Below the pieces are notes generated by a model, which had not been told where the DNA came from, did no database searches, and saw only the letters and a list, made by a program, of their open reading frames with translations. From the NCBI GenBank assembly GCA_938041625.1, contig CALISK010000200.1, positions 1 through 35,535 of the forward strand: a stretch of 35,535 nt of DNA, written 5' to 3'. Positions 1 through 32,411 of the stretch are shown piece after piece. The translations under genes were made by a program, and so were the position numbers. Source of the DNA: an uncultured Tenacibaculum sp. Lineage in GTDB: Bacteria; Bacteroidota; Bacteroidia; Flavobacteriales; Flavobacteriaceae. The first letter of the stretch is position 1. Every line of letters starts with the position of its first letter.

Positions 1-1
1 C

Positions 2-62
2 GCTAAATATAAAATTTGGCGTTTATAGAAGAAAAGATAAAAGCAAAATATTTATATTTAGC
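2..62. repeat. 12-bp perfect inverted repeat (gctaaatataaa 2-13 / tttatatttagc 51-62)
   Basis: Arms read directly; 37-nt spacer; followed by acaatagtgc (79-88), a near match to the ACAATGGC motif seen at other boundaries. Confidence 0.6.
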
Positions 63-120
63 TAAGTAATAAACCGAAACAATAGTGCTTATCACCTGCC
101 CTACGTTTCTTATACTTAAC

Positions 121-847
121 GTTGGCAATAAGCTCAAAAAAGAATGAATGAGACTAAAAAATCAGAAACAAAAGACTTTCTTGAATCAATACCTAATGAA
201 TTTAGAGTAATTGAAGATAAAATCAATTCAAAAGTTCTTGATGAATATCATGAAATAGCTAATGATATAGAAAATAAAAATCATATTGAAATTTCTAAAA
301 ATCAATGGACAGAATTGAAATCCCAAAAAGCTTTAAAAGAACTATTAGTTTATTTGTCAGAAATTGGAGATGTAAAAAGTTATAGAAAAATAGAAGAAAT
401 TACAAAAAATGGAAAACCTGAGATTATAGAATTCTCATACGTAGCATTAAAATTTGCTAGATTAAATTTAGAAAACAACTTATCTGATGAACCAATAGGA
501 TGTATTTCAACCGAATTAGGAGGAAAAGGGAACAAATTGAGACATTATTTTGTTGTGAAATCAAAAGATAAAATTATACAGAATAAGGAATCAAAGATAA
601 TTAATGAGCTTAAAAACATTTGTAATGAGAACGATTCTGAACTTGAAGAAATTGAAAATAACGGCAAATATATCTTAGTTAAGATTTTAATTTCAATGGA
701 TTATGCTGTTGGAAATATAATTGATAAATTAACTAGTAAATGTTTGTTCTTGGATAGAGAATATATTTGCAACAATGTGGAAAAACCTAAAAAGGAATTC
801 ATTGAAAAATGGATAGATAACAAACTAGAATAAAACCTATTGCCAAC
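121..847. repeat. Cassette-like unit: inverted repeat gttggcaata (121-130) / tattgccaac (838-847) closely bracketing one ORF
   Basis: 10-bp perfect inverted repeat immediately outside ORF 144-833; followed by acaatggc (846-853). Confidence 0.65.
144..833 (+). CDS. hypothetical protein, 229 aa, cassette cargo
   Basis: Complete ORF, charged soluble protein, no recognised family; tightly bracketed by inverted repeats. Confidence 0.75.
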   Translation: MNETKKSETKDFLESIPNEFRVIEDKINSKVLDEYHEIANDIENKNHIEISKNQWTELKSQKALKELLVYLSEIGDVKSYRKIEEITKNGKPEIIEFSYVALKFARLNLENNLSDEPIGCISTELGGKGNKLRHYFVVKSKDKIIQNKESKIINELKNICNENDSELEEIENNGKYILVKILISMDYAVGNIIDKLTSKCLFLDREYICNNVEKPKKEFIEKWIDNKLE

Positions 848-857
848 AATGGCAGCC

Positions 858-1041
858 GTTGCACAACCCCATAACTTAACAAAAAACAACTTTAAATAAG
901 CCTTTTCAAGAGGATTGTTCTTTTAATAATCATAAACTGTTTTTTCTCTTGATATATTTTAATGCCTTGCATAATTAAAAATAAGAAACCTATTAAATCT
1001 GAACTCTATTCTAATCTTATTTTTTTGTTAACTTGTGCAAC
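858..1041. repeat. ORF-less cassette-like unit: inverted repeat gttgcacaa (858-866) / ttgtgcaac (1033-1041)
   Basis: 9-bp perfect inverted repeat, no convincing ORF inside; followed by acaatggc (1046-1053). Confidence 0.5.
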
Positions 1042-1195
1042 AGACACAATGGCTATAATTAATTGCTAGGTCTGAGTTACTTCAAAATAATCCTTCAGAT
1101 GATTCCTTTTGCTAATTTTTATTTATTAAATTTAATGCTTCACAATGCAATCAAACATACACAAACACTTTGATACCCCCAAAAAACATACAGCT

Positions 1196-2878
1196 ATGAA
1201 AAAATATTTTCTATTATTATTTCTTTTATTTTTTTCAATATATTCTTTTGGACAGATAAAAGAAAGTCAGAAAATAGATAGTGTTTTTGCCAAATGGAAT
1301 AATAAATATGCTCCAGGTTGTACCATAGGCATTATAAAAGATCATAAATTAATTTATACTAAAGGTTATGGATTAGCCAATATGGAATATAATATTCCAA
1401 ACTCAGAATCTTCAGTATTTAGGATTGCATCAACTTCCAAGCAATTTACAGCTGCATGTATTTTACTTCTTGTAGAAAAAGATAAATTAAGTCTTGATAA
1501 CAATTTGAAAAAAATATTTCCAGAATTTCCCGAATATGCTAAAAAAATTAAAATTAGACATTTACTAAATCATACGAGTGGTATTAGAGATTACTTACAA
1601 ATTGCTTATTTAAAAGGATTAAATGATGATGACTATTATACTGATGACAATGTTATGAAATGGTTAGTAAATCAATCTAATTTGAACTTTGTCTCTGGGG
1701 AGGAATATTTATACAGTAATTCTGGTTATTGGCTTCTTGGTCAAATTGTAAAAAAGATAGCAGGGATAAACATTGCTGAATTTGCAAGGAAAGAAATATT
1801 TATCCCCCTTGGAATGAATAATACACATTTTCATAATGACCATACACAAATAGTGAAAAATAGAGCGTCTGGATATGTTCTAGATAATAATGGTAATTAT
1901 AAAATTAGCATGACAACTTTAGATATGATTGGTGATGGAGGTATATTCACGACTATTAATGATATAAAAAAATGGGATGATTCCTATTATAAATCTAAGA
2001 TTTTAAGTAGAGAGTTCTGGAATATGATGACAGAACAAGGTATCTTAAATAATGGTAAAATTATTGACTATGCTTCTGGATTAAGGATAAGTAAATATAA
2101 AGGATTAAAAACTATCAAACATGGAGGGGGCTTCGTTGGTTTTAGAGCAGAATTATTACGCTTTCCTGATCAAAAATTATCGATAGCAATATTTGCCAAC
2201 AGAGACGATATCAATCCATCAAGTATAGCTTATAAAATCGCTGATATATTGTTGAAAGATAAATTTACTGAAAACATTTTTAAGAGAGATAAAAAAAATA
2301 AGATTGATAATCCAGAAGGTAAATTTAAACTAAGTCAATTATCAGGTGATTATGAATTAAGCCCAGGTTTTATTGCTAAGTTCTTTATTAAGAACGACTC
2401 TTTAAAATTGTTTCAACGTTGGGATAAATCAAATCATGATCTTAAGAGATTAAGTAACAATATATTTCAAATATCAGGAAATGAATATGTGAGTTTTTCA
2501 TTTTCTAATTTAGAAAATGGTTTCACACAGACACTTAAAGTTATGGAAGGTAGTAGAAAGACAATAACCACAACAAGAAAAAAGGAGATTGACATTACTA
2601 GAATTAATTTAAAAGACTATTTAGGCGTTTATTATAGTAAAGAATTAGATGTGAATTATAGTTTTGAAATAGAAAACCAAACTTTAGTTCTTAGAATTGA
2701 GAATAAAAAATCAACTATTAAGTCTACTATTAATAACATAGATGAATTTTCAACTAATTTAGGTTTAGTAAGATTTAAAAGAAAAAATAGCCTGATTTAT
2801 GGTTTAGAGTTAGATTCAGGAAGAGTTATAAATTTGATATTTAAAAAAATAACTGATACTAACAAAAACTATAATTAA
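1196..2878 (+). CDS. serine hydrolase, beta-lactamase class C / penicillin-binding-like family, exported
   Basis: Signal peptide MKKYFLLLFLLFFSIYSFGQ; SxxK in FRIASTSKQFTAAC; YSNSGYWLLG (YxN motif); HGGGFVGF (HxG-like motif). The ORF track starts at 1145, but ATG at 1196 begins the signal peptide. Confidence 0.9.
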   Translation: MKKYFLLLFLLFFSIYSFGQIKESQKIDSVFAKWNNKYAPGCTIGIIKDHKLIYTKGYGLANMEYNIPNSESSVFRIASTSKQFTAACILLLVEKDKLSLDNNLKKIFPEFPEYAKKIKIRHLLNHTSGIRDYLQIAYLKGLNDDDYYTDDNVMKWLVNQSNLNFVSGEEYLYSNSGYWLLGQIVKKIAGINIAEFARKEIFIPLGMNNTHFHNDHTQIVKNRASGYVLDNNGNYKISMTTLDMIGDGGIFTTINDIKKWDDSYYKSKILSREFWNMMTEQGILNNGKIIDYASGLRISKYKGLKTIKHGGGFVGFRAELLRFPDQKLSIAIFANRDDINPSSIAYKIADILLKDKFTENIFKRDKKNKIDNPEGKFKLSQLSGDYELSPGFIAKFFIKNDSLKLFQRWDKSNHDLKRLSNNIFQISGNEYVSFSFSNLENGFTQTLKVMEGSRKTITTTRKKEIDITRINLKDYLGVYYSKELDVNYSFEIENQTLVLRIENKKSTIKSTINNIDEFSTNLGLVRFKRKNSLIYGLELDSGRVINLIFKKITDTNKNYN

Positions 2879-2985
2879 AATAAAAAGTTTTGGCTCAGGG
2901 CTTAATCCGAAATTAAATGCAAATTTAATTCTGTACTAATCATAGTCAAAATATTGTCATACATTAAAAAAGCTCCGGTAAATAA

Positions 2986-3519
2986 ATGTTTTTAGGATTT
3001 CAATTACTTTTTTTACTTCTAATTTCTCCTTTTATAATTGGAATATTTCTTTACGGAATTAAAAGGAAAACGGAATTTATGGGAAAGGCAATTTTAACTT
3101 TTTATGCATTCGGAATTAGCTTTATTATAATAATGTTAATTATTGGTATTCTCGGAAAAAAGAAAGTATTAGAAAAATCCGATTTTTATGGAGAATATAC
3201 GATTGACCGAAATTACTTTTCTGGAAAGCAAGCAGATTGGCAATACAATAACTTCCGATTTGAAATTAAAGAAAATGATTCTATGTACTTTTACGTAACA
3301 GACGGAGAAATAATAAACGAAACCTATAAAGGGACAATATCAACTCTTGTACCATACAAGTCAGCAAGACTTGTAATAGAGATGAAAAATCCAAATCATC
3401 ATATTTTGACATCAAACCCAACAATTTATAGAGAAGCTTGGGGCTTCTTTATGGTTTTTAAATCTCCTAAGTTTAATAATATGTATTTTAGGAAAGCAGA
3501 ATGGAAAATAATAGAATGA
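2986..3519 (+). CDS. hypothetical membrane protein, 177 aa
   Basis: Two N-terminal hydrophobic segments, then a beta-rich soluble domain; followed by gaacaatggc. Confidence 0.75.
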   Translation: MFLGFQLLFLLLISPFIIGIFLYGIKRKTEFMGKAILTFYAFGISFIIIMLIIGILGKKKVLEKSDFYGEYTIDRNYFSGKQADWQYNNFRFEIKENDSMYFYVTDGEIINETYKGTISTLVPYKSARLVIEMKNPNHHILTSNPTIYREAWGFFMVFKSPKFNNMYFRKAEWKIIE

Positions 3520-3724
3520 AAATAAAAACACTAGGCGGAACAATGGCAGTAAGGTTGATCCTTATTTAAAAATTAAAGTTTCACGTTGGCTTATATAAAA
3601 AAATCATAAAGACTTATCCTATTACAAATCGTATCGTAATTCATGAAATAAACACGAATTAATTCGAATACTTTCTAAAAATATTAATTGGAATAATACC
3701 GATTTAGGTATATAATTTAACTTG

Positions 3725-3809
3725 GTCAGTTAAAGTAGAGTGATGTTTTATAGGGATTATTTTATAGTCACAAGAACTATTACTTACATACTGCCTCTAC
3801 TCAACTGAC
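3725..3809. repeat. Imperfect inverted repeat (gtcagttaaagtagag / ctctactcaactgac)
   Basis: 7 + 7 complementary bases interrupted by a small asymmetry; lies in a non-coding gap of about 730 bp. Confidence 0.45.
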
Positions 3810-4247
3810 AATGTACTTTGTTTATACATAACCACACACTCCCCGTATGATTAAGTAAACAAAATTATTAGCTAAAGCATTATCAAAAAACTTTTTTAAT
3901 AACTTATTGCTATATAAAAAAACTTACATATCAAATGTATTCATTTTAAAAACACAACGTTTTTTTCAAGTGTTAAAAAAAACTTAAAATAATCTTAAAA
4001 AAGATAAATCAAATCACTGAATTACAACACATTAAAAACATTGATAAATGACAAAAAAGTATACATTTTTGTTCTTTTTAACACTAATTATCTATTAAAA
4101 ATAAGTTTACTGAAGTACAAAAGATAAATTCTATTTGCTTAACAAAAAGAAAACAATGAGTTATATTATTTTCTCCTCGCTTTTTCTTTAAAGCTTTTAA
4201 ACCGATACATTACATTCAAAATTTAAACTAGACAATTCTTTAAATTA

Positions 4248-6581
4248 TTAATTAGAATCATACAATCTAAAAAAGCTACATTTACTTCTTATTTTTTGAT
4301 AAAACTTGGTGGTATTATATTTTGTTTTTAAAGCTTTAAATCCTTCTTTTTTATGTTTCTTATAATCACCTCCATCATAATCACTCCATCGATCTTTATA
4401 TATATTATTATAGTAATCGTTTAATTCACATTTCGCTATCATATAAGAACAACGCGCATTTAATTCATTATCTGAAGATAAAGCAATTGTTTCTTTATAA
4501 TATGCCATCGCTTTATTTGCTAGTCCATTATAGGTGTTTGGGTACCCTCCATAAGGAAAACTGTACGTCTTTTTCTTTTCTATTACCTCAGAAATATCAG
4601 GTCTTTTTTCTCCGAAATAATAATTATACCAATAAGCCCCATCATATACTACAGTTCTATAATATCCTGTATTAGATACGTTAAAAAAATAATTACCCAA
4701 TAAGTATAATGCTAATTTTCGTTGCCATTTTTTGGCTTCTTTATTTTGTGATAATTCTTCTAATTTTTGAAGGTTTAAAAGAAGATTATACTTATTCATT
4801 TTGGTGTTTAAAAACGAAAATACATCTGCTTTATATACTTCATCTTCCATTACATATCCATCATCACAACCAAAGCATTCTATGATATTATTACTAAAAA
4901 TCGTTGCTGGTATTTCTTTAGAAACATCATAGTTTTCATAGTAAGGCAATGCTTTATTAAAATTACCACTCCTAAAGTAGATATCTCCTTTGGCTGCCTT
5001 CATTAGCTTAACTAACTTTGTTTCTATATAACCTTTATTCGTTAACCTTTTTAACAATAACTTTTCAAAGCCACTTTTATTTTTCTTTTTTACAAAACGA
5101 GTTAGTTCATCAACTAATTTATGAGATGGAGTTCCTTCAATATTTTCTAAATAATTATGTAATAAATAAGATTGTGCTATTTTATCTTCTTTTAAATACA
5201 AATGACTTAATTGTTCTATGATAATATTTTTTAAGCTACACCCTAATCTTTCATCTATAATATCGGTATAGTTACATTGATCTAATACAGCAATGCTTTC
5301 TGCATCTTTTGAAAATAATTTAGTTAACCAAACATCATTTTCTTGAGTAATGTTTTGCCAAGAAAACACTTCAAATAGTACTGCTAAATTTTCTTTTTGT
5401 TTTTTAAACTTTTTTGAAGTTATTAATTTTAATTTGCTCTTAGCTTCTCCTATATTCTCTTTTAAAAACAGAACATAAGCTTCTGTTAACTTCCAAAACT
5501 CAATGTTGTGTTTGTTATTTATTTTTCTAATGATGAATCTTAACAACTCATTTAGTTTGCCATTTGTTTCTGCTTCCTTTTGAAATATATTCTTTCTAAA
5601 ATTAACACCTAAAATAGTTCTCTCTAAATTATTAAGAATACGAATAGCTAATAATTCTTGTTTATCTTCTGCAATACCTAACTCCGTAATCTTTTTTAAA
5701 TCTTGCATCGTATCAGAGAAACTTCGTAATCCAGTTATAAAAATTTGATTTGCTTTTTCTTCATTTGTTTTCAATAATGATTTTCCTTCTGCTTTTTTAT
5801 AAGTACAGAATTTATAACTTACAAAAGCAGATTGTTTTTTATCAATACTTTTATCAAAAACATTCAAGAAAGTATATGCAGCTTTTTCATATTGTTTTGT
5901 TTTATAATAGCACCCTCCTACTTGATCTAATATATAATAATAGATCTCATTTTTAAATTTGAACGATTCTTTCTCGTTCTCAAAAAAATCTAATGCTAGT
6001 TTAAAACGATGATTATATCTGTATAAACGAATTAATTGATATGCATAACGTTGTTTTAAGCCTTTATTTTTCTCTTTGTTATATAATTTTAATCCTTCAT
6101 TTATAAGCTGTGGTGCATTTTCTTTTCTTCCTTTTATCAACTTATCATAATCCCAATAATATCTGCTATTATTAACAGTTACTTTTTCTGTAGATTTTGC
6201 AAATTTTAAATATCTGATTGCAGCAGATTCTTTTTCCTTGTTACTCTTTAATAGTTGAAATTTTTCCTCTTTACCATAGATTACTTCAACTAAAATTTCT
6301 ATTGAATATTTTTCATTAAAAAATTGATACCATAATTGAATGTTCTCACTATCCTTAGGTTGTAAACTTTTATAAAAAGGACTTTGGTCTGTTCTTAAAA
6401 AAGGATAGAATGCTTTTTGAGATATGTTTTCTTGGTTGAATAAATTATAGTAATAATAATCTGAATCGTAAGATCCTCCACAAAAATAAATAGGCTCATT
6501 TGCATATAAATTACTTACTGATAACTTAAAAAATACGATTATAAACAATAGGTATTTCTTAAAAAAAAATAGCTTTCTCAT
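4248..6581 (-). CDS. exported 777-aa protein with TPR-like helical repeats
   Basis: Signal peptide; repeated helical segments (e.g. EKAAYTFLNVFDKSIDKKQSA, FNKALPYYENYDVSKE); 4-nt overlap with the upstream gene. Confidence 0.8.
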   Translation of the reverse strand: MRKLFFFKKYLLFIIVFFKLSVSNLYANEPIYFCGGSYDSDYYYYNLFNQENISQKAFYPFLRTDQSPFYKSLQPKDSENIQLWYQFFNEKYSIEILVEVIYGKEEKFQLLKSNKEKESAAIRYLKFAKSTEKVTVNNSRYYWDYDKLIKGRKENAPQLINEGLKLYNKEKNKGLKQRYAYQLIRLYRYNHRFKLALDFFENEKESFKFKNEIYYYILDQVGGCYYKTKQYEKAAYTFLNVFDKSIDKKQSAFVSYKFCTYKKAEGKSLLKTNEEKANQIFITGLRSFSDTMQDLKKITELGIAEDKQELLAIRILNNLERTILGVNFRKNIFQKEAETNGKLNELLRFIIRKINNKHNIEFWKLTEAYVLFLKENIGEAKSKLKLITSKKFKKQKENLAVLFEVFSWQNITQENDVWLTKLFSKDAESIAVLDQCNYTDIIDERLGCSLKNIIIEQLSHLYLKEDKIAQSYLLHNYLENIEGTPSHKLVDELTRFVKKKNKSGFEKLLLKRLTNKGYIETKLVKLMKAAKGDIYFRSGNFNKALPYYENYDVSKEIPATIFSNNIIECFGCDDGYVMEDEVYKADVFSFLNTKMNKYNLLLNLQKLEELSQNKEAKKWQRKLALYLLGNYFFNVSNTGYYRTVVYDGAYWYNYYFGEKRPDISEVIEKKKTYSFPYGGYPNTYNGLANKAMAYYKETIALSSDNELNARCSYMIAKCELNDYYNNIYKDRWSDYDGGDYKKHKKEGFKALKTKYNTTKFYQKIRSKCSFFRLYDSN

Positions 6582-7579
6582 TTCAATTTATGTATAAGTT
6601 CTTTAAATTTATTTTCTTGTAATTCTATTTCGTCTAAGTGATACAAAATAGTATTTCTAATATTTAATTTACTGTTTTTTACAATTTCGTTACTCTTTAT
6701 AATTTCTTCTAAATTACTTTTTTCTAATTTTAATAAAAAGTCTTTGTATAGATATTGACCTTTATAAAGTTTCTTTTTTATTACTTTATATATATTAGTA
6801 CTTATTTTTTTAAAATGAAGTGTATCTTTTTCAAAATCATCTACAATTACACGATTAATTAATCGTATTCTCTTTTCTTTATTCTTTATAACTACCTGAG
6901 AAAATAAAGGCAATGCAACATCTAAAGTAAGCGGATACTTAGCTTCTTTATGTATATACTGTTTTACAACTTTATGATTCAAAATTGAATTTTCCTTAAA
7001 ATCACTTAAATCACCCACATTATACAACATTAAAACACCATAATCAACAGGTGGTACTCCTGTATTTTTTCTATATTTAATTTGATGTAATCGTATGGTA
7101 GCACTCGTTTTAACTTTCCGATTTAATAATTCTAAAAATTGAAAGTATTTTTCTTTTGTAGTACCAGACCAATCACAATCGATTTGAATTTCTTTTGCGT
7201 TTTTATTAAAATATCGATGGTGTATTTGTTGTACTAATTTTTCTGTTTTTTCTACTAATTTTTCAATAGAAATTTCTTTATTTTTAAACACAGTGTTTCT
7301 AATAAAAACAACCGGAATTATTGTTCTTTTTTTAAAGGCCTCATCTATATTTTGAATAACTGCTACCGGATGAGATGTGTTTTCTGTTAATACAATATCA
7401 AAATAATGTATAAACGTTTTCTCTTTATCTGTTACTTCTAATGCTTCCTTTTCTTTATTTGTTAAAGTAGCATCAATTTTCCAATGATAAAACTGAATTT
7501 TTGCCTTTTCTTTATGTTCTTTTTCACATGAAAAAAATACAATAATAATGATTACTAAGCTTATTAATTTAGAGTTCAT
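6578..7579 (-). CDS. lipoprotein, TIM-barrel glycosidase-like (possibly DUF3142-like)
   Basis: Lipobox VFFSCEK; motifs IQIDCDWSG, ATIRLHQIKYR, GVPPVDYGVLMLYNVG; ATGA overlap with the downstream gene. Confidence 0.75.
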   Translation of the reverse strand: MNSKLISLVIIIIVFFSCEKEHKEKAKIQFYHWKIDATLTNKEKEALEVTDKEKTFIHYFDIVLTENTSHPVAVIQNIDEAFKKRTIIPVVFIRNTVFKNKEISIEKLVEKTEKLVQQIHHRYFNKNAKEIQIDCDWSGTTKEKYFQFLELLNRKVKTSATIRLHQIKYRKNTGVPPVDYGVLMLYNVGDLSDFKENSILNHKVVKQYIHKEAKYPLTLDVALPLFSQVVIKNKEKRIRLINRVIVDDFEKDTLHFKKISTNIYKVIKKKLYKGQYLYKDFLLKLEKSNLEEIIKSNEIVKNSKLNIRNTILYHLDEIELQENKFKELIHKLK

Positions 7580-9113: not shown

Positions 9114-9980
9114 TTAACTTTCTTTATTTTTTATTGTTAGCTTTAAGTATTGAAACTCTAATTTTTTAGGATCTCCTTCTTTAATATACTTTCTAACTGG
9201 ATACGCTCTAAAAATTAATTCTGAGTTAGAAATCCAAAAGAAATGAGAGGGTTCCTCTGAAGGCATCCAACTTTTAAAATTCACTCTTAAAATTGGTTTG
9301 TTACTTTTTCCTTTATTTTTTAAATGAACTATTGTTAACTCAGCAGATTCGTTATGTTGGTATGTAGCAGTATTTGGAAATAAGTCTACTAAAATCTTTT
9401 TATCTGGTGAAAAATGAGGAAATCCGCCAGTACCTATTTCGGTTCTCTCTCCTGAATTTTTGTCAATAAAAAAATGAGTTAGTGTTTCAAAAAATGATTT
9501 GATTACATATTTATTTATTGCATTTATTTCTCCAACATAATTAAAATACTCAATATAAGCTTCAATAGATTTCTCAGATTGTATATGCTTTTTTTTATTC
9601 CCTTTTTTAATTGGTAAATCAAAAGATCCGTTTTTATAAAACTTTACCTTACTGGTTGTTTTATCTAAATCATACGGATTTTTAATTTTGGTATATTTCT
9701 TTATATCGTTAACTATTTCGAGTTTAATATAATGTTTTAATGTATCAATACTTTTTTCTGAAAATCTTTTTGGATGAAAGATCGGTTTTGATATATTCGG
9801 AGCGTAGTAGTTTTTATACTTATTAGGAAAACTCGTTTTCTCAGGATATCGAATATTAAAATTACCAATAGTTAATTCATAAAAATGACATACTGCTTCT
9901 TTAGGTATTTTTGTAATACTTTCTTGTGAAAAAACAGCTGTTATACTAAAAAGAAAAAATACTTGAACACTACGTTTCAT
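9114..9980 (-). CDS. exported hypothetical protein, 288 aa
   Basis: Signal peptide MKRSVQVFFLFSITAVFSQ. Confidence 0.75.
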   Translation of the reverse strand: MKRSVQVFFLFSITAVFSQESITKIPKEAVCHFYELTIGNFNIRYPEKTSFPNKYKNYYAPNISKPIFHPKRFSEKSIDTLKHYIKLEIVNDIKKYTKIKNPYDLDKTTSKVKFYKNGSFDLPIKKGNKKKHIQSEKSIEAYIEYFNYVGEINAINKYVIKSFFETLTHFFIDKNSGERTEIGTGGFPHFSPDKKILVDLFPNTATYQHNESAELTIVHLKNKGKSNKPILRVNFKSWMPSEEPSHFFWISNSELIFRAYPVRKYIKEGDPKKLEFQYLKLTIKNKES

Positions 9981-9994
9981 TTGTTCTCTTTATA

Positions 9995-10822
9995 TTAATC
10001 AGTTTTCATTAAAATAGACGCATTTGTATCTATTTCAGGTTTAAAATATCCTTGTTCTCCTTCAAAAAAATGAAATGTATTTTTATTTAATGTCTTTATA
10101 TCTAATAGTACTATTTCTTTCTTTTTTCTCCTAAAACTACTTGTCGATGGTCTTTCTTCTCTAATAGTATTACCATCTATAACAGTCCATGTTCCTTTTT
10201 CCATTTCTTTTCCTACCCCATCTACATAAGTTCCATCTATATTATATTTCTTCCATCGTTTATTCCTTCCATTAAATAATTTTGTGACTCTTTCATCTAG
10301 TTTCCCTCTTACATAGGTTTTATTTTTATCATCTATTACAGAAAAAATTAATTCAGAATCTTTTATAAACATAGCTCTATTTAATATAGTTTTTGCCATT
10401 TCTATATTTTCTGGTGTCTTTCTACGTACCTGTACTTGAAATGCATACTCCTTTATTCTCCATTTTTTATTGCATAATAATTTTGCAATAGCTTCAAATT
10501 GTTTTTTCTTTTCTTTCTTTTTTTGTTTTTCCCTCTCTTCTTCCTCTTTTTTTTCTGTTTCTATTGCTATAGAATCTTTCCTCTCTTGTATTTTCTCTTC
10601 AGCTCTTTCTAATAAACTTCCATAAAAAACACCTTCTAAAACTTCTTTTTTAGCTTCTTTTTCTGAAATATAGTTTTTCAGTAGTATTAATTGCTCTGGC
10701 GTTATTTGGTTAGTCATCTCTTCAAAATCTTTTTCCTTAGATATTGATGCATATTTTTTATGAATTCCTTTTTCACAAGAAACAATGACAAGGACTAAAA
10801 CTAATATTAATATTTTTTTCAT
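9995..10822 (-). CDS. lipoprotein with charged coiled-coil linker, 275 aa
   Basis: Lipobox VIVSCEK; EKKEEEEREKQKKKEKKKQ segment. Confidence 0.75.
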   Translation of the reverse strand: MKKILILVLVLVIVSCEKGIHKKYASISKEKDFEEMTNQITPEQLILLKNYISEKEAKKEVLEGVFYGSLLERAEEKIQERKDSIAIETEKKEEEEREKQKKKEKKKQFEAIAKLLCNKKWRIKEYAFQVQVRRKTPENIEMAKTILNRAMFIKDSELIFSVIDDKNKTYVRGKLDERVTKLFNGRNKRWKKYNIDGTYVDGVGKEMEKGTWTVIDGNTIREERPSTSSFRRKKKEIVLLDIKTLNKNTFHFFEGEQGYFKPEIDTNASILMKTD

Positions 10823-10863
10823 TTCTTCTTTAATTTTAGGACAATAACTTATTTATTCTTTAT

Positions 10864-11826
10864 TTAAATTTTCAATTCCCCTTTAAAATACTCTTGTACT
10901 CCTTTAATACTGTCTGTTCTATAATTTATTATACTGTAAATAAATGTTGTTTCATCTATCCAATAAAAATCGACAAATCTACAAGCTATATTAAAATCTG
11001 TTAAGTATATAAATTCTCCTTTTTCTTTTTTCTGAAAAAAGTATAGTATGCATTCTTGACCAGATTCATATCCGTTTAAGCGATAGGTATTTTTAGGTGA
11101 CGGAATTATATAATCTGGATTACCAACAGTACTTTGCGTTGCTCCTGTTTTTATAGAAAAGCAAGCGTCACTAGAATGCCCACCTTCTAAAACTAAAATA
11201 TCGTACTTCGGATAATAACCAGAAAAATCTTTGTTAAAGCCATAATCATTACTCATTTGATTTATGATTAATTCTTTTCCTTTATTAGTTATAATACTTT
11301 TAATAGCATCTTCTCTTTTGTATGCTTCATCTTCAAAACTAGTGATCCAAGTAACTCTGTTTTTTAATCTCTTTTTTATCGAGTTTAAATCGGTTATTTT
11401 TTCTGATTTCTGAAAAAATGCTGTTCTTTTCCCTCTTAATCTTATAAACTCTTTTTCGGTTATTTTAAAAGTGTCTATTTCTTCTCTTCCTTCTTTCTTT
11501 TTCTTTAAATAAGCATCAAACACATATCCTTCTCCTTCATATTGTTCATGCTTTGTTTTTTTGGGTAATAAATACAAATAATTGTTATATTTAATTTTAA
11601 CCCATTTCCCTTTTATTCTTTTTCTTTTTACTTTTATTGTTATTTCTTCACTCTCATCTTTTAACTTTTTAACTGTAACTCCAAAAGGTAATTTGGTCAT
11701 TTTTTTTGAACCTAATTTTTTATCTGCTCTAACATTTAAACCATTTTTTGCATTCACAAAATAGTCTTCTTGTGCATTCATTGAAAAACACACTATTGAT
11801 AGTATAATTATTAAAAAAGTTCTCAT
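10864..11826 (-). CDS. exported protein with bacterial SH3-like domain, 320 aa
   Basis: Signal peptide; VNAKNGLNVRADKKLGSKKMTKLPFGVTVKKL resembles a bacterial SH3 domain. Confidence 0.8.
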   Translation of the reverse strand: MRTFLIIILSIVCFSMNAQEDYFVNAKNGLNVRADKKLGSKKMTKLPFGVTVKKLKDESEEITIKVKRKRIKGKWVKIKYNNYLYLLPKKTKHEQYEGEGYVFDAYLKKKKEGREEIDTFKITEKEFIRLRGKRTAFFQKSEKITDLNSIKKRLKNRVTWITSFEDEAYKREDAIKSIITNKGKELIINQMSNDYGFNKDFSGYYPKYDILVLEGGHSSDACFSIKTGATQSTVGNPDYIIPSPKNTYRLNGYESGQECILYFFQKKEKGEFIYLTDFNIACRFVDFYWIDETTFIYSIINYRTDSIKGVQEYFKGELKI

Positions 11827-11842
11827 TTCATGAATTTATTAT

Positions 11843-12355
11843 TTATCCAACACCATGAATTTGTTTCAATTTATATTCTCCATCAATCAGTTTAAATGTA
11901 AAATTTATTGAATACTCACCAATAGATTCTTCTATTAAATCTACACAACCAACCGACCATTGAAAAGAGCTTTTATCTTCATTAATGCGTAAATATGATT
12001 TATAAATACACCCTTTGTATAACACTTCTTTATTGTTCTCTTGTTTATTAAAATTAAATTGGGTTAGTAACTTTAGTTCAGGTTCTTCTAAAAACAAGCA
12101 GTTTTTAATTAATAATTCTTTTGAGATTTGAAAATTATACTTTCTCATTTGCTCCTCAGAATCATCCTCGCTTATCAAACGAACTAACCCCGCATCTCCT
12201 TCTATTGGAAAGTTAGATAACTCTATTATTTTTTTACAATCATTTTTTACAATTGCTTCTTGAAATTCTTTAAAAACTTTTCCTATTTTATTATTAGTGA
12301 TATCTGTTTTTAAAAACCCTAGTGATATACTAATTATTAATAATACAGTTTTCAT
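11843..12355 (-). CDS. hypothetical protein, 170 aa, possibly exported
   Basis: Complete ORF with a short hydrophobic N-terminus, in the packed cluster. Confidence 0.7.
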   Translation of the reverse strand: MKTVLLIISISLGFLKTDITNNKIGKVFKEFQEAIVKNDCKKIIELSNFPIEGDAGLVRLISEDDSEEQMRKYNFQISKELLIKNCLFLEEPELKLLTQFNFNKQENNKEVLYKGCIYKSYLRINEDKSSFQWSVGCVDLIEESIGEYSINFTFKLIDGEYKLKQIHGVG

Positions 12356-12396
12356 CTTTTCTTAATTAAGTTATCATCTAACTTTATTACTTAAAA

Positions 12397-12891
12397 TTAG
12401 TTTACTTGATGTCTTTTAAAGTTACTTTCAAAAATAGTATCTATAGAATTACTTTCTAAAAATTGATTTGTCAATTCCCATATTTCATCTATTAAATCTT
12501 CTTCTACATCTATACTTCCTATTCCAATATCTTCAGCTATTTCTCCTTGCGAAGTAATATATTTTCTTTTTAATTCTTCATTATTATAATGCTCAAAATA
12601 ATACGTATCTGAAACATCAGAAACCATAAATTGAATTACTTCTTCTTGGTAACTAGAAACATCATACAACCTACCTAATTCATATAATAATAATGTTCCT
12701 TTTTCTGTATGTAATACATCTATAATATTTTCTTCAAAACCTGTAGTTGCATCTTCAAAACCTACTTCTTCAGTATAACTTAAATTTTCTTTTAATAAAT
12801 TTTCTATTTCAGAAGTATTTTCAAGTTTTTTACGAATTAATAGTCCTGCTAAATTATATCCCATTTTTATTTTTTTAATAATTGATGTCAT
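12397..12891 (-). CDS. acidic hypothetical protein, 164 aa, immunity-like
   Basis: Strongly acidic helical small protein, no signal peptide. Confidence 0.7.
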   Translation of the reverse strand: MTSIIKKIKMGYNLAGLLIRKKLENTSEIENLLKENLSYTEEVGFEDATTGFEENIIDVLHTEKGTLLLYELGRLYDVSSYQEEVIQFMVSDVSDTYYFEHYNNEELKRKYITSQGEIAEDIGIGSIDVEEDLIDEIWELTNQFLESNSIDTIFESNFKRHQVN

Positions 12892-13113
12892 TTCTAGTTT
12901 TAAAATTCAAAGTGAATACCTCTTTAAAACCTCTTAATTATTTACGAAGTTAACTTGAATTACTAAAAAAATGTTTTGAATATATAAAAGCGTGCTATTT
13001 AAATAAATATTTGAATCCTTTTTTAAAACATTTGCTTTTATCTATTATGAATGTAGTATCTAATTAAACTTTGATTTTAGTAAAAGTAATACTACTGATT
13101 ACTACTTCATTTT

Positions 13114-13167
13114 AAGGCTTTAGTAGCCTTCAAGAACTATATGTTAATCGTAATTATATATTACGAT
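13114..13167. other. Two adjacent hairpins (aaggct-ttagt-agcctt; atcgtaat-tatat-attacgat)
   Basis: Perfect 6-bp and 8-bp stems in the 12892-13208 intergenic gap, downstream of the minus-strand gene ending at 13209. Confidence 0.4.
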
Positions 13168-13208
13168 AGTTATCAATATTGTTTTATTAAATTAGTTAAA
13201 TGAAAATT

Positions 13209-13748
13209 CTATTGATTTTTTTTAACTTGTCTCTTATTCCATTCACTTCGTAACACTTTGGTTTTTGTAATATAATCTACACACCCTGTAGATATTGCTT
13301 TACTCCCAATTATTATTTCTCTTTTTCCTTTTTTTCTTAAATCAATAGTTCCTATGCTCTTATATTTACTTGAACTTATATTAGGCTCAAAACTCTTCGT
13401 AAAAACATTATATTGATTATTTTTCACTGAAATAGGTGTTTGAAAGTCAAATATTATTTCATGATTAATTAATTCATTTTCAATTTTGATAGCATATGGA
13501 TAATCTACTTGTTTAGATTCTGGTCTTTTTGAATCTATTATTTTAAATGTTAAATCATTAAATTCAGAATTGTTTGCTTCAATGAGTTTATTTTCTATTA
13601 TCTCATATTCGTGTTTTTCATAACAATTGCAATTTGCTTCTTCAATTTCAACATACTTAGATTGAAAAACAGAACAACTAGAGATTAAAAGTGATATTAA
13701 AATAAAAAATAGACTCTTTAATATGTATTTGCTCTTCAATTTCATCAT
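13209..13748 (-). CDS. lipoprotein, 179 aa
   Basis: Lipobox LLISSCSV. Confidence 0.75.
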   Translation of the reverse strand: MMKLKSKYILKSLFFILISLLISSCSVFQSKYVEIEEANCNCYEKHEYEIIENKLIEANNSEFNDLTFKIIDSKRPESKQVDYPYAIKIENELINHEIIFDFQTPISVKNNQYNVFTKSFEPNISSSKYKSIGTIDLRKKGKREIIIGSKAISTGCVDYITKTKVLRSEWNKRQVKKNQ

Positions 13749-13778
13749 AATTATTTAGCGTATATTTTCTTAAAGAAC

Positions 13779-15647
13779 TTATTCTTTAATTAAATCACCA
13801 AAAGCATTGTATTTACTATCACTCATTTGATATACTCTATCTAAACCTTCACCACTTACAGAAAACCCTCCATATTTACTTTTTGCTTTTGCTTTTACTT
13901 TTCCTTTACGATCTATAATATGCCAAAACCCATCAAATTTAACCATGGTAAATCCATTTACAAACTCCTCAGCGCTTTCATATTTAAAAGGAAGTATTAC
14001 CTCTCCTTTTTTGTTAATATAACCGAACTTTTGGTCTTCTTTAGCTAATGCTGCTAAACCTTCACTAAACTTATTTCCATAATGATACTTAAAAGGAATT
14101 ACAGTATAGCCAGAAGGGTTTATAAAACCAACTTTATCTTTTTTATTATATGCAAGTAGTAAATCTTCAGAGTAACCATCATTGTATACACCTGCAATAT
14201 TTTTAAGCAGCTTACTTGTACCCGTTTTATCTATTAAAAAACAATCGTGCTCATTAATTAAAATCATTTTATCGTTATGTAAAAGAACATAATTATGGCA
14301 ATCTTTAGCTAACAATAATTCATAATTCTTATTATAAATTTTGAAAGACTGACCTTTCTTTTCTCTAATTCCAAAAATTCCGTTATTAAAATTAAGAACC
14401 TTATGTATATTCAATGTTTTTAATTTCTTTTCTTTTACATCTAAATAATAATAATCAGAGTCATAATAGTCATCAGTTGCTGTATAAAAATTACCTCCTG
14501 AAGCATATAAATTTTCTTTATCTGTTTTTACAACTTCGTTTAAATATTTATCTACAAAAACTACTTTTCCTTTTGATTTTTTTGGAAATAAATCGTTATC
14601 TATTTTTAGATTAGTTGCTGTGAACCTTTTAATTTTCTCTACTCTATCAGTTTCAAAATAGATTCTTACTTCTGCTATATTTCCTCTATAGAAATACTCA
14701 TGATGAATCATTCCATCTTCATCCCTAAAGAAATCTATACCCTTTATATGTGTATCTAAGTAGGTTATAAACTCTTCTTTTGTTTTAAAAGAATTCTCTT
14801 CAAAAAGCTCTTGAGTTTCTCCTAAAAAATTACTGAACTTACGAATTGCCTTTTTTGCTTTTTTAGGCAACAATTCAGAAGTATTGGAAAAACTATCGCT
14901 TAATGGTTTTCCTTCTTTATTAAATGCATAAATATGATAATTTAACTTCTTTAAACTATCACTTACTGATATATGTAAATAATTATCCGTTAGTTTTTTT
15001 ATTTTAATTTCACCATTTTTATATTTTTTCTTCTTAGTACTATTGGAAAGTACAACTGAATCATAGGCTTTCAAATAACTTAATTTATAATCTATGAAAA
15101 TACTATCTACAATTTTTTGTTTTCCCCATGCTCTTGGGAAATGCTCAAAACTTACTTCATAATTTTTTAGACTCTCAGTTCGTTTTTCTTTACTCTTATA
15201 ATAAATTGTATTTGGTAAGAATGATTGTTTGTTAACTGAAAGAAAATCCGTTGTATTTTCTGATAATCTTAGTGTAGCTCCCTCCTTGAATTCTTTATCC
15301 AATCTGTAAAACACAAATTCAGATACAGTATCATTTATTATTTGATCAAACCCTACATCTTTAAACTGCTGTAAAGTAGCTGCCACCATAGAAGTATCTA
15401 TTTTAAAAGGAGATCTTAATTTTTCATCTTTTTGGGCTATGTTTTTAATTTCCTTGTCTGAACCTCCTATTTTATTAAAATATTTTAATGTTCTTATCGT
15501 ATTATTTAATTGTGTTGAAATCTCCTCTAAATTCATTCCTTCAAATTCAGCAATGAATTCATCCATTTCTTTGGTACGAGATTTCTCTTGACAACTTGTA
15601 AAAAAAATTGAAAATAAACAACTTAAAACTATAATATACTTTTTCAT
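13779..15647 (-). CDS. WG-repeat lipoprotein, 622 aa
   Basis: Lipobox FFTSCQE; C-terminal repeats KKDKVGFINPSGYTVIPFKY / DQKFGYINKKGEVILPFKY / FDGFWHIIDRKGKVKAKA. Confidence 0.85.
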   Translation of the reverse strand: MKKYIIVLSCLFSIFFTSCQEKSRTKEMDEFIAEFEGMNLEEISTQLNNTIRTLKYFNKIGGSDKEIKNIAQKDEKLRSPFKIDTSMVAATLQQFKDVGFDQIINDTVSEFVFYRLDKEFKEGATLRLSENTTDFLSVNKQSFLPNTIYYKSKEKRTESLKNYEVSFEHFPRAWGKQKIVDSIFIDYKLSYLKAYDSVVLSNSTKKKKYKNGEIKIKKLTDNYLHISVSDSLKKLNYHIYAFNKEGKPLSDSFSNTSELLPKKAKKAIRKFSNFLGETQELFEENSFKTKEEFITYLDTHIKGIDFFRDEDGMIHHEYFYRGNIAEVRIYFETDRVEKIKRFTATNLKIDNDLFPKKSKGKVVFVDKYLNEVVKTDKENLYASGGNFYTATDDYYDSDYYYLDVKEKKLKTLNIHKVLNFNNGIFGIREKKGQSFKIYNKNYELLLAKDCHNYVLLHNDKMILINEHDCFLIDKTGTSKLLKNIAGVYNDGYSEDLLLAYNKKDKVGFINPSGYTVIPFKYHYGNKFSEGLAALAKEDQKFGYINKKGEVILPFKYESAEEFVNGFTMVKFDGFWHIIDRKGKVKAKAKSKYGGFSVSGEGLDRVYQMSDSKYNAFGDLIKE

Positions 15648-15675
15648 TTTATACTTTATTAAGAGCTATATTAAT

Positions 15676-16152
15676 TTAATTAAAGCTCGCTATTAATTTT
15701 TTAAAATGCGGATAATATATAGCTCCCCACATCGGATTTTTTTCAAACTTAAAAATCTCCTTTGTTTCTGAGTTATATGCTACAGGAATTGAAAATCCAG
15801 CCCATTTTTTTCCTGACTTCAACTTTCTACAATACTCTTTTGCTTCTTCTGTAATATTGGTTGAAATTAATATTGAAATCACCCCAACAGCAGATTGCAA
15901 TCCTCTTGGCCATCCTTTATAATTTTGTTTAGAAAATTTAAAAGATTCAGATAAATGCTGCTCAATGATCGATTTATTAATTTCTTGATCTCCTAAGTCT
16001 GTAATAACAATAAATGTATTTAATTGAGTAGCTACCCAACTCCATTTAAATTTCTTTTCATAACCTATGACACTTTGGTTATTTAAAATTTCACCTTCTG
16101 AATGAAAAATATTAGCTTCTTTCAATGTTACTTTTACTGATTCTATATTCAT
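15676..16152 (-). CDS. hypothetical cytosolic protein, 158 aa
   Basis: Complete ORF, soluble, no signal peptide. Confidence 0.7.
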   Translation of the reverse strand: MNIESVKVTLKEANIFHSEGEILNNQSVIGYEKKFKWSWVATQLNTFIVITDLGDQEINKSIIEQHLSESFKFSKQNYKGWPRGLQSAVGVISILISTNITEEAKEYCRKLKSGKKWAGFSIPVAYNSETKEIFKFEKNPMWGAIYYPHFKKLIASFN

Positions 16153-16199
16153 TTTATTATTTTTTATTTCTCGTGTTTTACTAAATGTTTATCAGACAT

Positions 16200-17429
16200 C
16201 TATTTATACTCCCCTACATTTACATTATGCTTTCCTAACAAAGTTCTTGCATGTTTTACAAAACGCATCATTTTATCGTAATCTTTTTTCTTTGTAAAAG
16301 ATTTTGGTTTTTTAGCGTATTCATCTGCTGGTAATACATAATATTCTTTTTTACCATTTACTACTGGTTCGTATACCCAAGTAAGTAAGTAATTTGCATT
16401 TTTAATGTGTATTTTTTTATCCTTGTCTTTCGTTAATGATAATTTTAAAACTGCTCCTCCGTCTCTAGGAAATGTACGCTGGTGTGAAACAAAATTTCCT
16501 AATGAATACACCACAAAATCTTCTTTTGTATTTTCTTTTGTTGGTTTTGTCCATTTCATTGGTTGTAATACATGTGGGTGTGCACCTATTACAATATTTA
16601 CACCTAATGATTTAAAGTAAGCAAACATATCTTTTTGCTCTTTATTGGGTAAGTTTTTATACTGTAATCCCCAATGTACAAACGCAATAATTTGATCTGG
16701 ATTCACTTTACTATTCACATAGTTTATATCTTTTTTAATCGTTTCTTTATCTAAATAATTCACGATATTCGGAGGTGTTGGTTTTATACTATTTGTACCA
16801 TATGTGTAGCTTATTACAGCTATTTTAAAATTATTTTTTTCGATAACATATGCCGGATTTTTTGTTTTTTCTATTGAATTGATAAACGTTCCTGTATGTC
16901 CGATATTTAATGAATCTAAAATTTTAATTGTTCGTTCTACTCCTTTCTTACGTTTGTCACAAGAATGATTATTAGAAGTTGTTAATATATCTACTCCTGC
17001 ATTTTTTATTGCTGAAGCATATGATGGTGGAGAACTAAATTGTGGATATCCCGAATATGGTTTTACACCTAAAGTAACTTCTAAATTACCTAAAGTAACA
17101 TCTGCATTACTTAATATTGGTTTTATTTTAGAAAAGCATGAATCATACTCATATAATTTTGTTTTTTTATTATATGCCGCTTTTATTTGATCCATATGTC
17201 CCATAAAATCACCAATAAATAATAAGCTTATTTCATCGTCTTTTTTAGGACCTAATTTCTTTATGATTTTTTTTATAGGCTTGGTTACTACCTCTTTTTT
17301 ATTTTCTTTTATGGTAACCGTATTTTCTTTTTTTGATTCCCCTTTCTTTTGTGCTTCTTTTTTAGAAACACATGCATATTGCAAAAAAAGAATTAATAAT
17401 ACATATAATGTTACTTTACCTATCTTCAT
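16200..17429 (-). CDS. CapA-family (poly-gamma-glutamate biosynthesis / metallophosphatase-like) lipoprotein
   Basis: ISLLFIGDFMGH, VTLGNLEVTLG, ILTTSNNHSCDKRKKG, IAFVHWGLQYKNLPN, NIVIGAHPHVLQPM; lipobox YACVS. Confidence 0.92.
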   Translation of the reverse strand: MKIGKVTLYVLLILFLQYACVSKKEAQKKGESKKENTVTIKENKKEVVTKPIKKIIKKLGPKKDDEISLLFIGDFMGHMDQIKAAYNKKTKLYEYDSCFSKIKPILSNADVTLGNLEVTLGVKPYSGYPQFSSPPSYASAIKNAGVDILTTSNNHSCDKRKKGVERTIKILDSLNIGHTGTFINSIEKTKNPAYVIEKNNFKIAVISYTYGTNSIKPTPPNIVNYLDKETIKKDINYVNSKVNPDQIIAFVHWGLQYKNLPNKEQKDMFAYFKSLGVNIVIGAHPHVLQPMKWTKPTKENTKEDFVVYSLGNFVSHQRTFPRDGGAVLKLSLTKDKDKKIHIKNANYLLTWVYEPVVNGKKEYYVLPADEYAKKPKSFTKKKDYDKMMRFVKHARTLLGKHNVNVGEYK

Positions 17430-17647
17430 TTTTAATAGTTTTTAACTTATAGAGCTAATGTATAAATTATTTTAATGTTGTTCTTTATTGTTAACTATAT
17501 AAACCCTTAAATTATTATAGGTAGATATTCAATTTATAGTTTCTATTTTCAAAAATTATATGACTCTATCATTTCAAAAGATGCAATATTAGCGTCAAAA
17601 TATTTGTCATTTTCACACATTTTTATTCCTATTTGTTTTCTTTATTT

Positions 17648-18310
17648 TTAAACCTTTAATTCGTTAATTATATCATCACAATTTATTTCTTCATATATCA
17701 TATTACCAACAATTAACTTTTTTAAATTTGGTAACTTTTTCAATAGATTGGATACTTCTTTTTTTATTTCAAATTTACTTTTCCCTGTATTTCTATCATA
17801 AGCAATTTCAAGTACTTCTAACGTTTTAGCTGTTTGAAGGTCTGATATTCCTGTTAAATATTTACAGTTACGAATTGAGAAGTGTTTTAAGTTCTTCAAT
17901 TTTGAGAAATTAGTTAACTCTTTTATGTTTACATCAAATAGAGTTATGGATTCAATCGTGGTTGTATTTTTCAAAAAAGATAAATCTTCTATTTCTTTTG
18001 ATTTCATCAACTCTAAATTTAAATTCTTTATTTTAAGTGTCTCTATAAAATCAAGATTCTTGATATTACTACTAGATATCAATAAATACTCAAGATTTAA
18101 ACAATCAATCAGTACTGAATAATCTTTTATGACACTACCTGCAAATCCTATTTTTTTGAGGTTCTTAAACTTTTTTAAAAATCTTAATGAAATTTTCTTG
18201 AAAACAATTAAAAATAACTCTTCTATTTCATCTAAGTTCTTATTTTGAAGAATATTCAAATCTTTTACCCCATTTAATATTTCAATTTCAATTCTTTTAT
18301 CATTAATCAT
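17648..18310 (-). CDS. leucine-rich-repeat-like protein, 220 aa
   Basis: Repeated units such as LKNLKHFSIRNCKYLTGISDLQTAKTLEVLEI and LKKLPNLKKLIVG. Confidence 0.75.
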   Translation of the reverse strand: MINDKRIEIEILNGVKDLNILQNKNLDEIEELFLIVFKKISLRFLKKFKNLKKIGFAGSVIKDYSVLIDCLNLEYLLISSSNIKNLDFIETLKIKNLNLELMKSKEIEDLSFLKNTTTIESITLFDVNIKELTNFSKLKNLKHFSIRNCKYLTGISDLQTAKTLEVLEIAYDRNTGKSKFEIKKEVSNLLKKLPNLKKLIVGNMIYEEINCDDIINELKV

Positions 18311-18580
18311 ATTTCTGACTTGATTAGTGTGTTTGCAGATAATATAACGACAAAGACTGCTCGTAATAGATAAAAAATCATACTCCTTTTTTTAAATTAC
18401 TTTTGTAAAAAAAGTAAAAACATCTTTTATAATTAAAACTATTGAGTTTATTTATGTAACTAATAATTCTATTTCGTTATATTATTTTTTAATTTTTATT
18501 AAAGAAAACCTCTATTAATGATAAAATAATTCATCATCTCAAAAACACAACATAGAACTATTAATAAACATCTCTTTAAT

Positions 18581-19537
18581 TTACTTTTCAATTTCTTTTA
18601 TAAATATTAATTTACTTCCATTCCACTTATAATATTTAAAAGATATTTTCTTAATGTTTTTTGAATACACTTTTGTAGTTTTCAATACCACTAAATTTCT
18701 TACTGGAATATTAATGGATGAACTTGGTTCAACAATATCGAACGTTAAATCGTTTTTTAAAATATCTTTAAACTTTCCCCAAGGCGCTAAAACCACTTTA
18801 TTTGCAGTTACTATAGGAATATATAGTGTAAAAATTTGATCTTCTAACTCATCATTTTCTTCGTATTCAACCTCATCAGAACTCCATAATTTAATTAGTT
18901 TATTTTTTGTTGTAACTATTATTTCTTGATGAGATCTTCCTGGGCATGATTCTTCTTCGGTTCTGTAATTAAAAATATAATTTATTCCTTCTAAAGCATG
19001 TTCAGATTCATATAAATTCTCTAAAACATGATAGTCATAGTAATGTGGTATTGTATATTTTTGAAGTATTTTATTTGTTTTGGTATTAAATAATTTAATT
19101 GAAAAGGCGCCTTCATTATTGGATTTTGTTATAATTTTACCTAAAATTCCTAAATCCAATTTACTGTAACTTGTATAAAAGTTACTCATTACATTCGCTT
19201 TAATATATCCTCCTTCTTTAAAATCTGGATTCCATCCTTGCAGCTTATACCAATATATTCCTTCGTTTAAAATATGTTCTTGTACTGTATATTGACTATC
19301 GCTAAATTTTAGTTCTCTCACCACTTCACTTAAAGTATCTGGAGCGGCATATATATTAGCTGTTTCTGGAAAAATAAAAGTTCTTAAACCAGAAGGTAAA
19401 TTTAGAACATGTTTATAGTTATCTATCTTTTTAATAACAATACTATCTCTTAATATAACCTCTTCTACTTTTATATTTTCTTGTTTACAATTTGTAAACA
19501 TTAGTAGTGCTATTATAATTAAAAATACTTTATTCAT
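18581..19537 (-). CDS. SH3-like domain lipoprotein, 318 aa
   Basis: Lipobox MFTNCKQ; ETANIYAAPDTLSEVVRELKF...GIYWYKLQGWNP...GGYIKANVM resembles bacterial SH3. Confidence 0.78.
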   Translation of the reverse strand: MNKVFLIIIALLMFTNCKQENIKVEEVILRDSIVIKKIDNYKHVLNLPSGLRTFIFPETANIYAAPDTLSEVVRELKFSDSQYTVQEHILNEGIYWYKLQGWNPDFKEGGYIKANVMSNFYTSYSKLDLGILGKIITKSNNEGAFSIKLFNTKTNKILQKYTIPHYYDYHVLENLYESEHALEGINYIFNYRTEEESCPGRSHQEIIVTTKNKLIKLWSSDEVEYEENDELEDQIFTLYIPIVTANKVVLAPWGKFKDILKNDLTFDIVEPSSSINIPVRNLVVLKTTKVYSKNIKKISFKYYKWNGSKLIFIKEIEK

Positions 19538-31612: not shown

Positions 31613-32411
31613 AAACTTTACATCAGAAAATAAAAATCTATCCATCCAATTTAGTTTGGATGGATTTTCTTTTTGTATCAAAGACGCTATTTCTGAAGAG
31701 ATTGCTCTACTTTCTGAATATGTTTTCACTAATAAATTAGAAACACCTAATTTATTATTAGAAAAAATTAAATCTATATTCGAAAGTGATGAAGATTTAC
31801 AAGCTAACTTTAAAAAAGTAAAAGCAGTTCATTTAAATCAACTAGTTACTCAGGTACCTAATGAATATTTTGATGATGCAAATTTAAAGTCATATTTAAA
31901 TTATAATATAAAAACACTTGCTTCTGATTATATTACCTATGATAATTTACAAAGTATTGATGCAAAAAATGTATTCATTCCTTATGTAAATATTAATAAC
32001 TTTTTATTTCAAAATTTTGGCGAGTTTGAATTTGAACATCATTCTACAATTTTAATAAATAAGTTAGTTAAAAAATATGAAAATAGTTCTAATGATCTTA
32101 TTCTTGTTAATGTTGTATACGATCATATAGATGTAATAGTACTTAAAAAAGGAACTTTTTGCATGTATAATTCATTTCACTTTACAACTAAAGAAGATTT
32201 TTTATATTATATTCTTTTCTCTGCCGAGCAATTAAATCTTAACTTGAAAGAATTAGAACTTATATTTGTAGGAAATATTACTAAAGAATTTACTTCTTAT
32301 CAGATTATAAGTGATTATTTAAAAAATATTAGTTTTTTACAGCCTAGTTATGATTTTTTAGACGAAGCTGAACATTTTTTTCCACATTCAAATTATATTT
32401 TACTATCATAA
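31587..32411 (+). CDS. DUF3822 family protein
   Basis: Actin-like fold pattern; conserved position immediately before rsmD; overlaps the preceding gene by 26 nt. Confidence 0.8.
   Translation: MQKLTQRNKNFTSENKNLSIQFSLDGFSFCIKDAISEEIALLSEYVFTNKLETPNLLLEKIKSIFESDEDLQANFKKVKAVHLNQLVTQVPNEYFDDANLKSYLNYNIKTLASDYITYDNLQSIDAKNVFIPYVNINNFLFQNFGEFEFEHHSTILINKLVKKYENSSNDLILVNVVYDHIDVIVLKKGTFCMYNSFHFTTKEDFLYYILFSAEQLNLNLKELELIFVGNITKEFTSYQIISDYLKNISFLQPSYDFLDEAEHFFPHSNYILLS

Follow-up and report, generated by a model that had tools for sequence, protein, structure and literature searches.

A decayed cassette array in a Tenacibaculum genome and its probable origin in an integron-like system of Flavobacteriaceae with a patchless integrase

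Bases 1 to 3645 of the window, by which the whole 35,535 nt stretch of DNA analysed here is meant, very probably represent the terminal, now decayed part of a cassette array that belongs to an integron-like system of the Flavobacteriaceae, and this assignment is made jointly with the mechanism proposed below. It is also considered probable, with rather less confidence, that Flavobacteriaceae and some other members of the order carry a large and previously unnoticed class of chromosomal integrons, with an integrase that lacks the IntI-specific patch and falls in the nearest sister clade of IntI. The sequence comparisons that bear on these readings concern the layout of the platform, the pairing of each cassette's own arms, covariation, an asymmetry in strand folding, the precise edges of cassettes, their exchange between species, and the turnover of the locus. 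They suggest a system that is integron-like on all points testable here but two, the patch in the integrase and the R-box consensus.

In the proposed mechanism, a recombinase encoded directly upstream of the array, and in the same direction, would join an attI-like site, TATAACNNG|TT, to the attC-like site of a circular cassette, the substrate most likely being the folded bottom strand of the attC-like site. A cassette would begin with GTT, include one gene or none, and close with its own attC-like site. The left arm of the cassette would be complementary to the left edge of that site, giving a hairpin made up of arms of 10–13 bp, a bulge and a covarying inner stem. The adjacent recombinase is the presumed enzyme acting on these sites, and modelling predicts the bottom strand to be the reacting strand.

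The following features were assigned in the window.
1 to 120, forward strand: 3' part only of an attC-like site of the long form (~185 nt), truncated by the contig start
2–13 and 50–61: internal hairpin gctaaatataaa/tttatatttagc within the long attC-like site at 1–120
121 to 133, forward strand: 5' arm of cassette 1, GTTGGCAATAAGC, complementary to 835–847 barring position 11 and the outermost bases
144 to 833, forward strand: cassette 1 ORF, 229 aa, of no known family
835 to 847, forward strand: 3' arm of cassette 1, ACCTATTGCCAAC
846 to 857, forward strand: start of the cassette 1 attC-like site, ACAATGGCAGCC, split by an IS relic
858 to 1041: internally deleted IS relic of 184 bp, IS1182-like (DDE_Tnp_1_6), with ends GTTGCACAA/TTGTGCAAC
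1045 to 1171, forward strand: almost whole attC-like site (covariance model R1, 47.7 bits)
1197 to 2878, forward strand: gene for a serine beta-lactamase-fold hydrolase (Pfam PF00144, E 2.6e-54)
2861 to 2952, forward strand: decayed attC-like site (R1 score of 17.8 bits, with an E-value of 0.007 for 4.4 kb searched with filters off)
2986 to 3519, forward strand: ORF of the last unit, 177 aa, of no known family
3539 to 3549, forward strand: AACAATGGCAG, probably where the last attC-like site, now decayed, begins, in a register shared with other sites
3646: synteny boundary, with conserved chromosome rightward and cassette turnover leftward

The array in the window is worn, with one site that scores well (1045–1171; R1 E-values of 9e-8 with 212 kb searched and 1.9e-9 with 4.4 kb searched) and one that scores weakly (2861–2952). 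R1 gave no significant match at 3539–3549, where an attC-like site is presumed. Bases 1–120 align with complete sites, over the right two thirds of these, from two contigs of the same genome, C381 (L107), which includes four consecutive cassettes, and C134 (L090), and share 85% identity with the site that occupies the syntenic position in the sister genome, G012. An Rfam search of the window returned only snoRNA-like chance matches.

The preliminary description of this DNA had proposed units bracketed by inverted repeats specific to each unit. This holds for cassette 1, where arms GTTGGCAATA (121–130) and TATTGCCAAC (838–847) flank the ORF in a pattern seen in hundreds of cassettes of relatives, and where arm position 11 has an A against a C, a mismatch that is invariant in relatives. 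However, the repeats at 2–13 and 50–61 form the internal hairpin of an attC-like site and are not unit arms. No relative of the cassette 1 ORF was found in the 117 other congeneric genomes. The hydrolase unit has no recognisable arms, and clear arms are also absent from the last unit, which includes the third ORF. A start for the hydrolase ORF at position 1145, as given in the ORF list, was rejected as it falls within the attC-like site, and 1197 was taken.

The motif ACAATGGC was confirmed at positions 846–853, 1046–1053 and 3540–3547. It occurs 77 times on both strands of the 3.72 Mb genome, corresponding to an expectation of ~0.07 per 3.6 kb. Nearly all of the copies read on other contigs are in coding sequence, and one (C108) is in the same context as the second copy in the window. 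The bare motif was therefore rejected as a genome-wide boundary marker, and as a universal boundary motif it is not supported. Judged from many relatives, ACAATGGC is the first bases of one variant of the attC-like site, CAAC|AATGGCTATAA, with a site length of ~120–185 nt, and hence part of the site itself rather than a fixed motif outside it.

The stretch without an ORF at 858–1041, previously counted as a unit of the array, was rejected as a gene-less cassette because its halves match IS ends. The left half (to 944) matches one end, and the right half the other end, of longer relics (C108, C134, C293 and C226), which are located elsewhere in the genome and hold a broken transposase, the C293 copy matching Pfam PF13751 (DDE_Tnp_1_6). 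The stretch is such a relic of an IS1182-like IS, and it interrupts the array but does not account for it. The ACAATGGC copies on its two sides constitute an 8 bp direct repeat, which would be compatible with a target-site duplication, though the flanks of the C108 copy are unlike.

In G012 (L276, reverse complement, near a long attC-like site), another gene-less element was seen, unlike the IS relic in the window and with ends GTTGCACAACTC/GAGTTGTCCAAC, but placed at an attC start of the kind that the relic occupies. The left flanks of all such element copies are alike (ACANNGGTAACC-like).

Arrays in congeners are located directly downstream of the recombinase gene, and their units follow the design GTT[G/A]NNNNNN-gene-NNNNNNCAAC, with arms that vary per unit. 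The spacers that separate the units are mostly 114–121 or 181–184 nt in length. As a first regular expression for the junctions found too few of them, covariance model R1 was used instead, constructed from an alignment (A2) of 54 spacers and holding no information on the arms except AAC and GTT. In the 389 kb of array sequence retrieved, R1 identified 361 sites, on a single strand within each stretch, and 359 were used.

The ends of the spacers form an inner stem with 13 pairs. Both sides vary in 10 of these, and 95.6% of cells are paired, compared with 24–48% when one side is slid by 1–3 columns. Covariation and folding identify the attC-like sites as imperfect palindromes in which structure is conserved above sequence. 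At arm positions 4–10, cassettes matched their own arm at 6.52 of 7 positions (335 cassettes, sites set by R1 alone), and the arm across the site at 2.99 of 7. For the 154 distinct arm pairs the mean was 6.46, whereas 5000 shuffles averaged 2.57 and never exceeded 2.97. On the 5' side, 332 of 335 cassettes have an A at position 11, which is almost never paired, giving A/C in the top strand and T/G in the bottom strand. As pairing is with the cassette's own arm and not that of its neighbour, the full hairpin would be complete only in a single-cassette circle. When 269 circularised sites were folded as DNA, the bottom strand had the lower energy in 267 (mean difference 5.25 kcal/mol), and own arms folded better than neighbour arms in 254. 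The R box consensus GTTRRRY was not seen, the arms having GTT[GA] followed by bases mostly unfit for RRY.

The spacers are hairpins that follow genes, and many are near-alike within an array, as would be expected if they were repeated intergenic elements, such as terminators or REP-like sequences, at loci that change by homologous recombination alone. Some decayed loci may now change in that way. However, this explanation is very unlikely to account for the arrays, as it leaves unexplained the cassette-specific arm pairing outside the spacer, the invariant A/C mismatch, and the association with a neighbouring integrase that has attI-like sites.

R1 found matching sites in 113 of the 118 congeneric genomes and, across the order, in 25 of the 62 genera sampled, and on this evidence from sequence searches the system is widespread in marine flavobacteria. 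Named loci with both integrase and sites include those of Winogradskyella, Aurantibacter, Lutibacter, Bizionia, Polaribacter and Algibacter. No R1 match was found at true-IntI loci in the same search. For genomes at least 90% complete, the median number of sites was at least 28 with the integrase versus 15 without. Many sites are possible without a detected integrase, as one such genome has at least 29.

An ORF is present in 260 of the cassettes, oriented in the direction of the array in 239, and 75 cassettes have no ORF. The ORF begins a median of 30 nt past the GTT and ends 15 nt before the closing AAC. The genes carried are varied, with Type IIG restriction, defence reverse transcriptases and SduA among them. 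As cassettes carry anti-phage systems, the arrays would be a place to seek new defence genes. Many near-identical gene-less units of ~330 bp with arms GTTAGCAAATATT were also observed as the first cassettes behind the integrase at one locus (L116 in G013, oriented coordinates 9680–19095), where they sit between different gene cassettes, and similar repeats are present in G009 and G093.

Movement of cassettes between genomes was examined using 332 units, and 35 between-genome pairs with at least 85% identity were found, with a different following cassette in every pair. These include 7 non-redundant shared pairs, 87–97% identical, in different species and with different neighbours. In the shared cassettes, the left limit of identity falls exactly in front of GTT and the right limit exactly behind AAC (|GTT...AAC|), indicating that the unit moved is the gene together with its own right-hand site. 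G012 shares 95% DNA identity with the window over positions 3646–7570. However, window positions 1–3645 are replaced in G012 by other cassettes with the same kind of arms and sites, and a counterpart was found only for the attC-like piece at 1–120. This is the opposite of what had been put forward as evidence against a cassette system, namely that the ORFs are always present in syntenic relatives.

As the arms flank each gene in the manner of terminal repeats, and IS relics are present in arrays, the units might be regarded as transposon-like elements that have inverted repeats at their ends and depend for movement on a transposase supplied in trans, with spacers that are merely intergenic. 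This seems highly improbable given that arm sequences differ between units, the transferred unit includes only the right-side spacer, the units within an array all have the same direction, and the head of the array holds an integrase and an attI-like site. In the integron-like reading, which is preferred, cassettes appear to move as units and to join at G|TT, with the exact cut predicted to fall within G|TT.

A tyrosine recombinase of 366–404 aa is encoded just upstream of the array, and in the same orientation, in 79 of 118 congeners. These recombinases include the conserved C-terminal motifs of tyrosine recombinases and an N-terminal extension of ~90 aa. The attI-like sequence TATAACNNG|TT is located ~34 bp past the recombinase stop codon. 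The pattern TATARCNNGTT was found no more than 250 bp from the stop for 47 of 64 integrases (median 34 bp) and in 57 of 4000 random 250 bp windows (1.4%), and this sequence, the GTT of which joins the first cassette, is a candidate attI. Two integrases that are 98% identical are encoded on one chromosome (L113 and L114 in G001), each with a separate array, and in one of these arrays the first cassette codes for an AbiH-like protein.

No integrase had been seen in the window, and none of this family was detected at E<=1e-60 in the 70%-complete assembly of the window genome (G000), the genes being present in congeners. With a looser search, G000 yielded only a 317 aa Xer-like protein, and G012 only C-terminal fragments. 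From the sequences, the integrase seems to have been lost or broken in both genomes, and this would account for the worn state of the sites and for the IS relic. The original suggestion of a Bacteroidota cassette system with structure-recognised ends and an enzyme elsewhere is strongly supported by the integrase-bearing arrays of congeners and other Flavobacteriaceae.

The number of residues between the GKxR and HxLRH motifs is 56–59 in the flavobacterial recombinases compared with 98 in true IntI, and the IntI-specific patch (~40 aa) is absent. Model TIGR02249 aligns on both sides of the resulting gap, with scores of 197–210 bits against a cut-off of 265. Scores for NF040815 ('site-specific tyrosine recombinase/integron integrase') were 217.6–222.4 against a cut-off of 220, and as these straddle the cut-off some such proteins would already bear that ambiguous name in databases. 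The best matches among solved structures were XerC-like proteins and archaeal XerA, followed by IntI4, to which the best aligned stretch covers only query residues 96–269. The nearest named integrases are from Winogradskyella, Subsaximicrobium, Hanstruepera, Aurantibacter and Lutibacter.

In a tree of 85 proteins, clades were recovered for IntI (support 100/100), flavobacterial Xer (100/99) and the patchless Bacteroidota recombinases (98/76), with the last placed apart from Xer and adjacent to IntI and to two patchless proteins from other phyla. It is likely that the patchless clade is sister to IntI, with support near the base being moderate and some branches long. The patchless recombinases L177 and L204, from a planctomycete and Desulforhabdus, branch on the IntI stem. 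Recombinases from Acinetobacter plasmids, one of which is called TnpF, share 47% identity with the C-terminal part of a flavobacterial integrase, and are closer to it than class 1 IntI is.

An attC from Polaribacter phage P12002L, which carries a CALIN, was recombined by class 1 IntI1 via the bottom strand and not via the top strand (PMC9892861). It could accordingly be argued that these are ordinary integron cassettes, with a canonical IntI elsewhere or lost as the true enzyme and the adjacent recombinase unrelated. This is the least probable of the alternatives, as no match to canonical IntI above the cut-off was found in 39 genomes of relatives, and the adjacent recombinase, with an attI-like site behind it, recurs in congeners at the frequency given above.

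The system is like sedentary chromosomal integrons in having an adjacent tyrosine recombinase with an insertion site beside it, long one-way arrays of small cassettes, structure-conserved hairpin sites with a bottom-strand bias (here by folding), circular own-arm complementarity, a G|TT join, and defence genes in the cargo. It differs in that the recombinase is without the IntI patch, has the ~90 aa N-terminal extension and scores below the TIGR02249 cut-off, the arms are 10–13 bp with an invariant mismatch and no GTTRRRY, and integrase and cassettes are in the same direction. The recombinase shares a core fold and its best solved-structure matches with XerA/XerC/XerD, but forms a clade separate from flavobacterial Xer and is paired with arrays and an attI-like site.

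IntI is defined by an additional domain around patch III (PMC9668308). As the definition requires the patch, the system would lie outside integrons proper, and it is filed here as a new integron variant. For Bacteroidetes sensu lato, an IntegronFinder 2.0 survey lists one complete integron, in Salinibacter, with In0 elements earlier (PMC9024848), and IntegronFinder 2.0 identified none in a Tenacibaculum genome outside the set scanned here (PMC10013915). No description of the flavobacterial integrase–array platform was found in the open-access literature, preprints being outside the scope. Standard integron searches would probably miss these arrays, and surveys probably understate by far how common integrons are in marine Bacteroidota. 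The IntI patch has been described as necessary for integron recombination, and a patchless system with all other integron parts, long arrays and recent exchange of cassettes among them, would permit a direct test of that claim and of the origin of integrons. If the reading is correct, single-stranded, structure-directed capture of cassettes either predates the IntI patch or arose a second time.

The array in the window resembles a CALIN, the name for clusters of at least two attC sites that lack an integrase, in being the remnant of an array without an integrase, and P12002L bears sites found with the same model, but the consulted portions of the source state no link between the published P12002L CALIN and the flavobacterial platform or integrase (PMC9892861). 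The attC tested with IntI1 (PMC9892861) is presumably one of the sites found with R1. In the genome of this lytic phage (L272), about eight R1 sites were found, some of only 54–57 nt, including those at coordinates 38036–38089, 38880–38935, 32224–32280, 39123–39244 and 14503–14624. The sites lie around a methyltransferase gene and other small genes, and two of 54–56 nt flank a methyltransferase gene.
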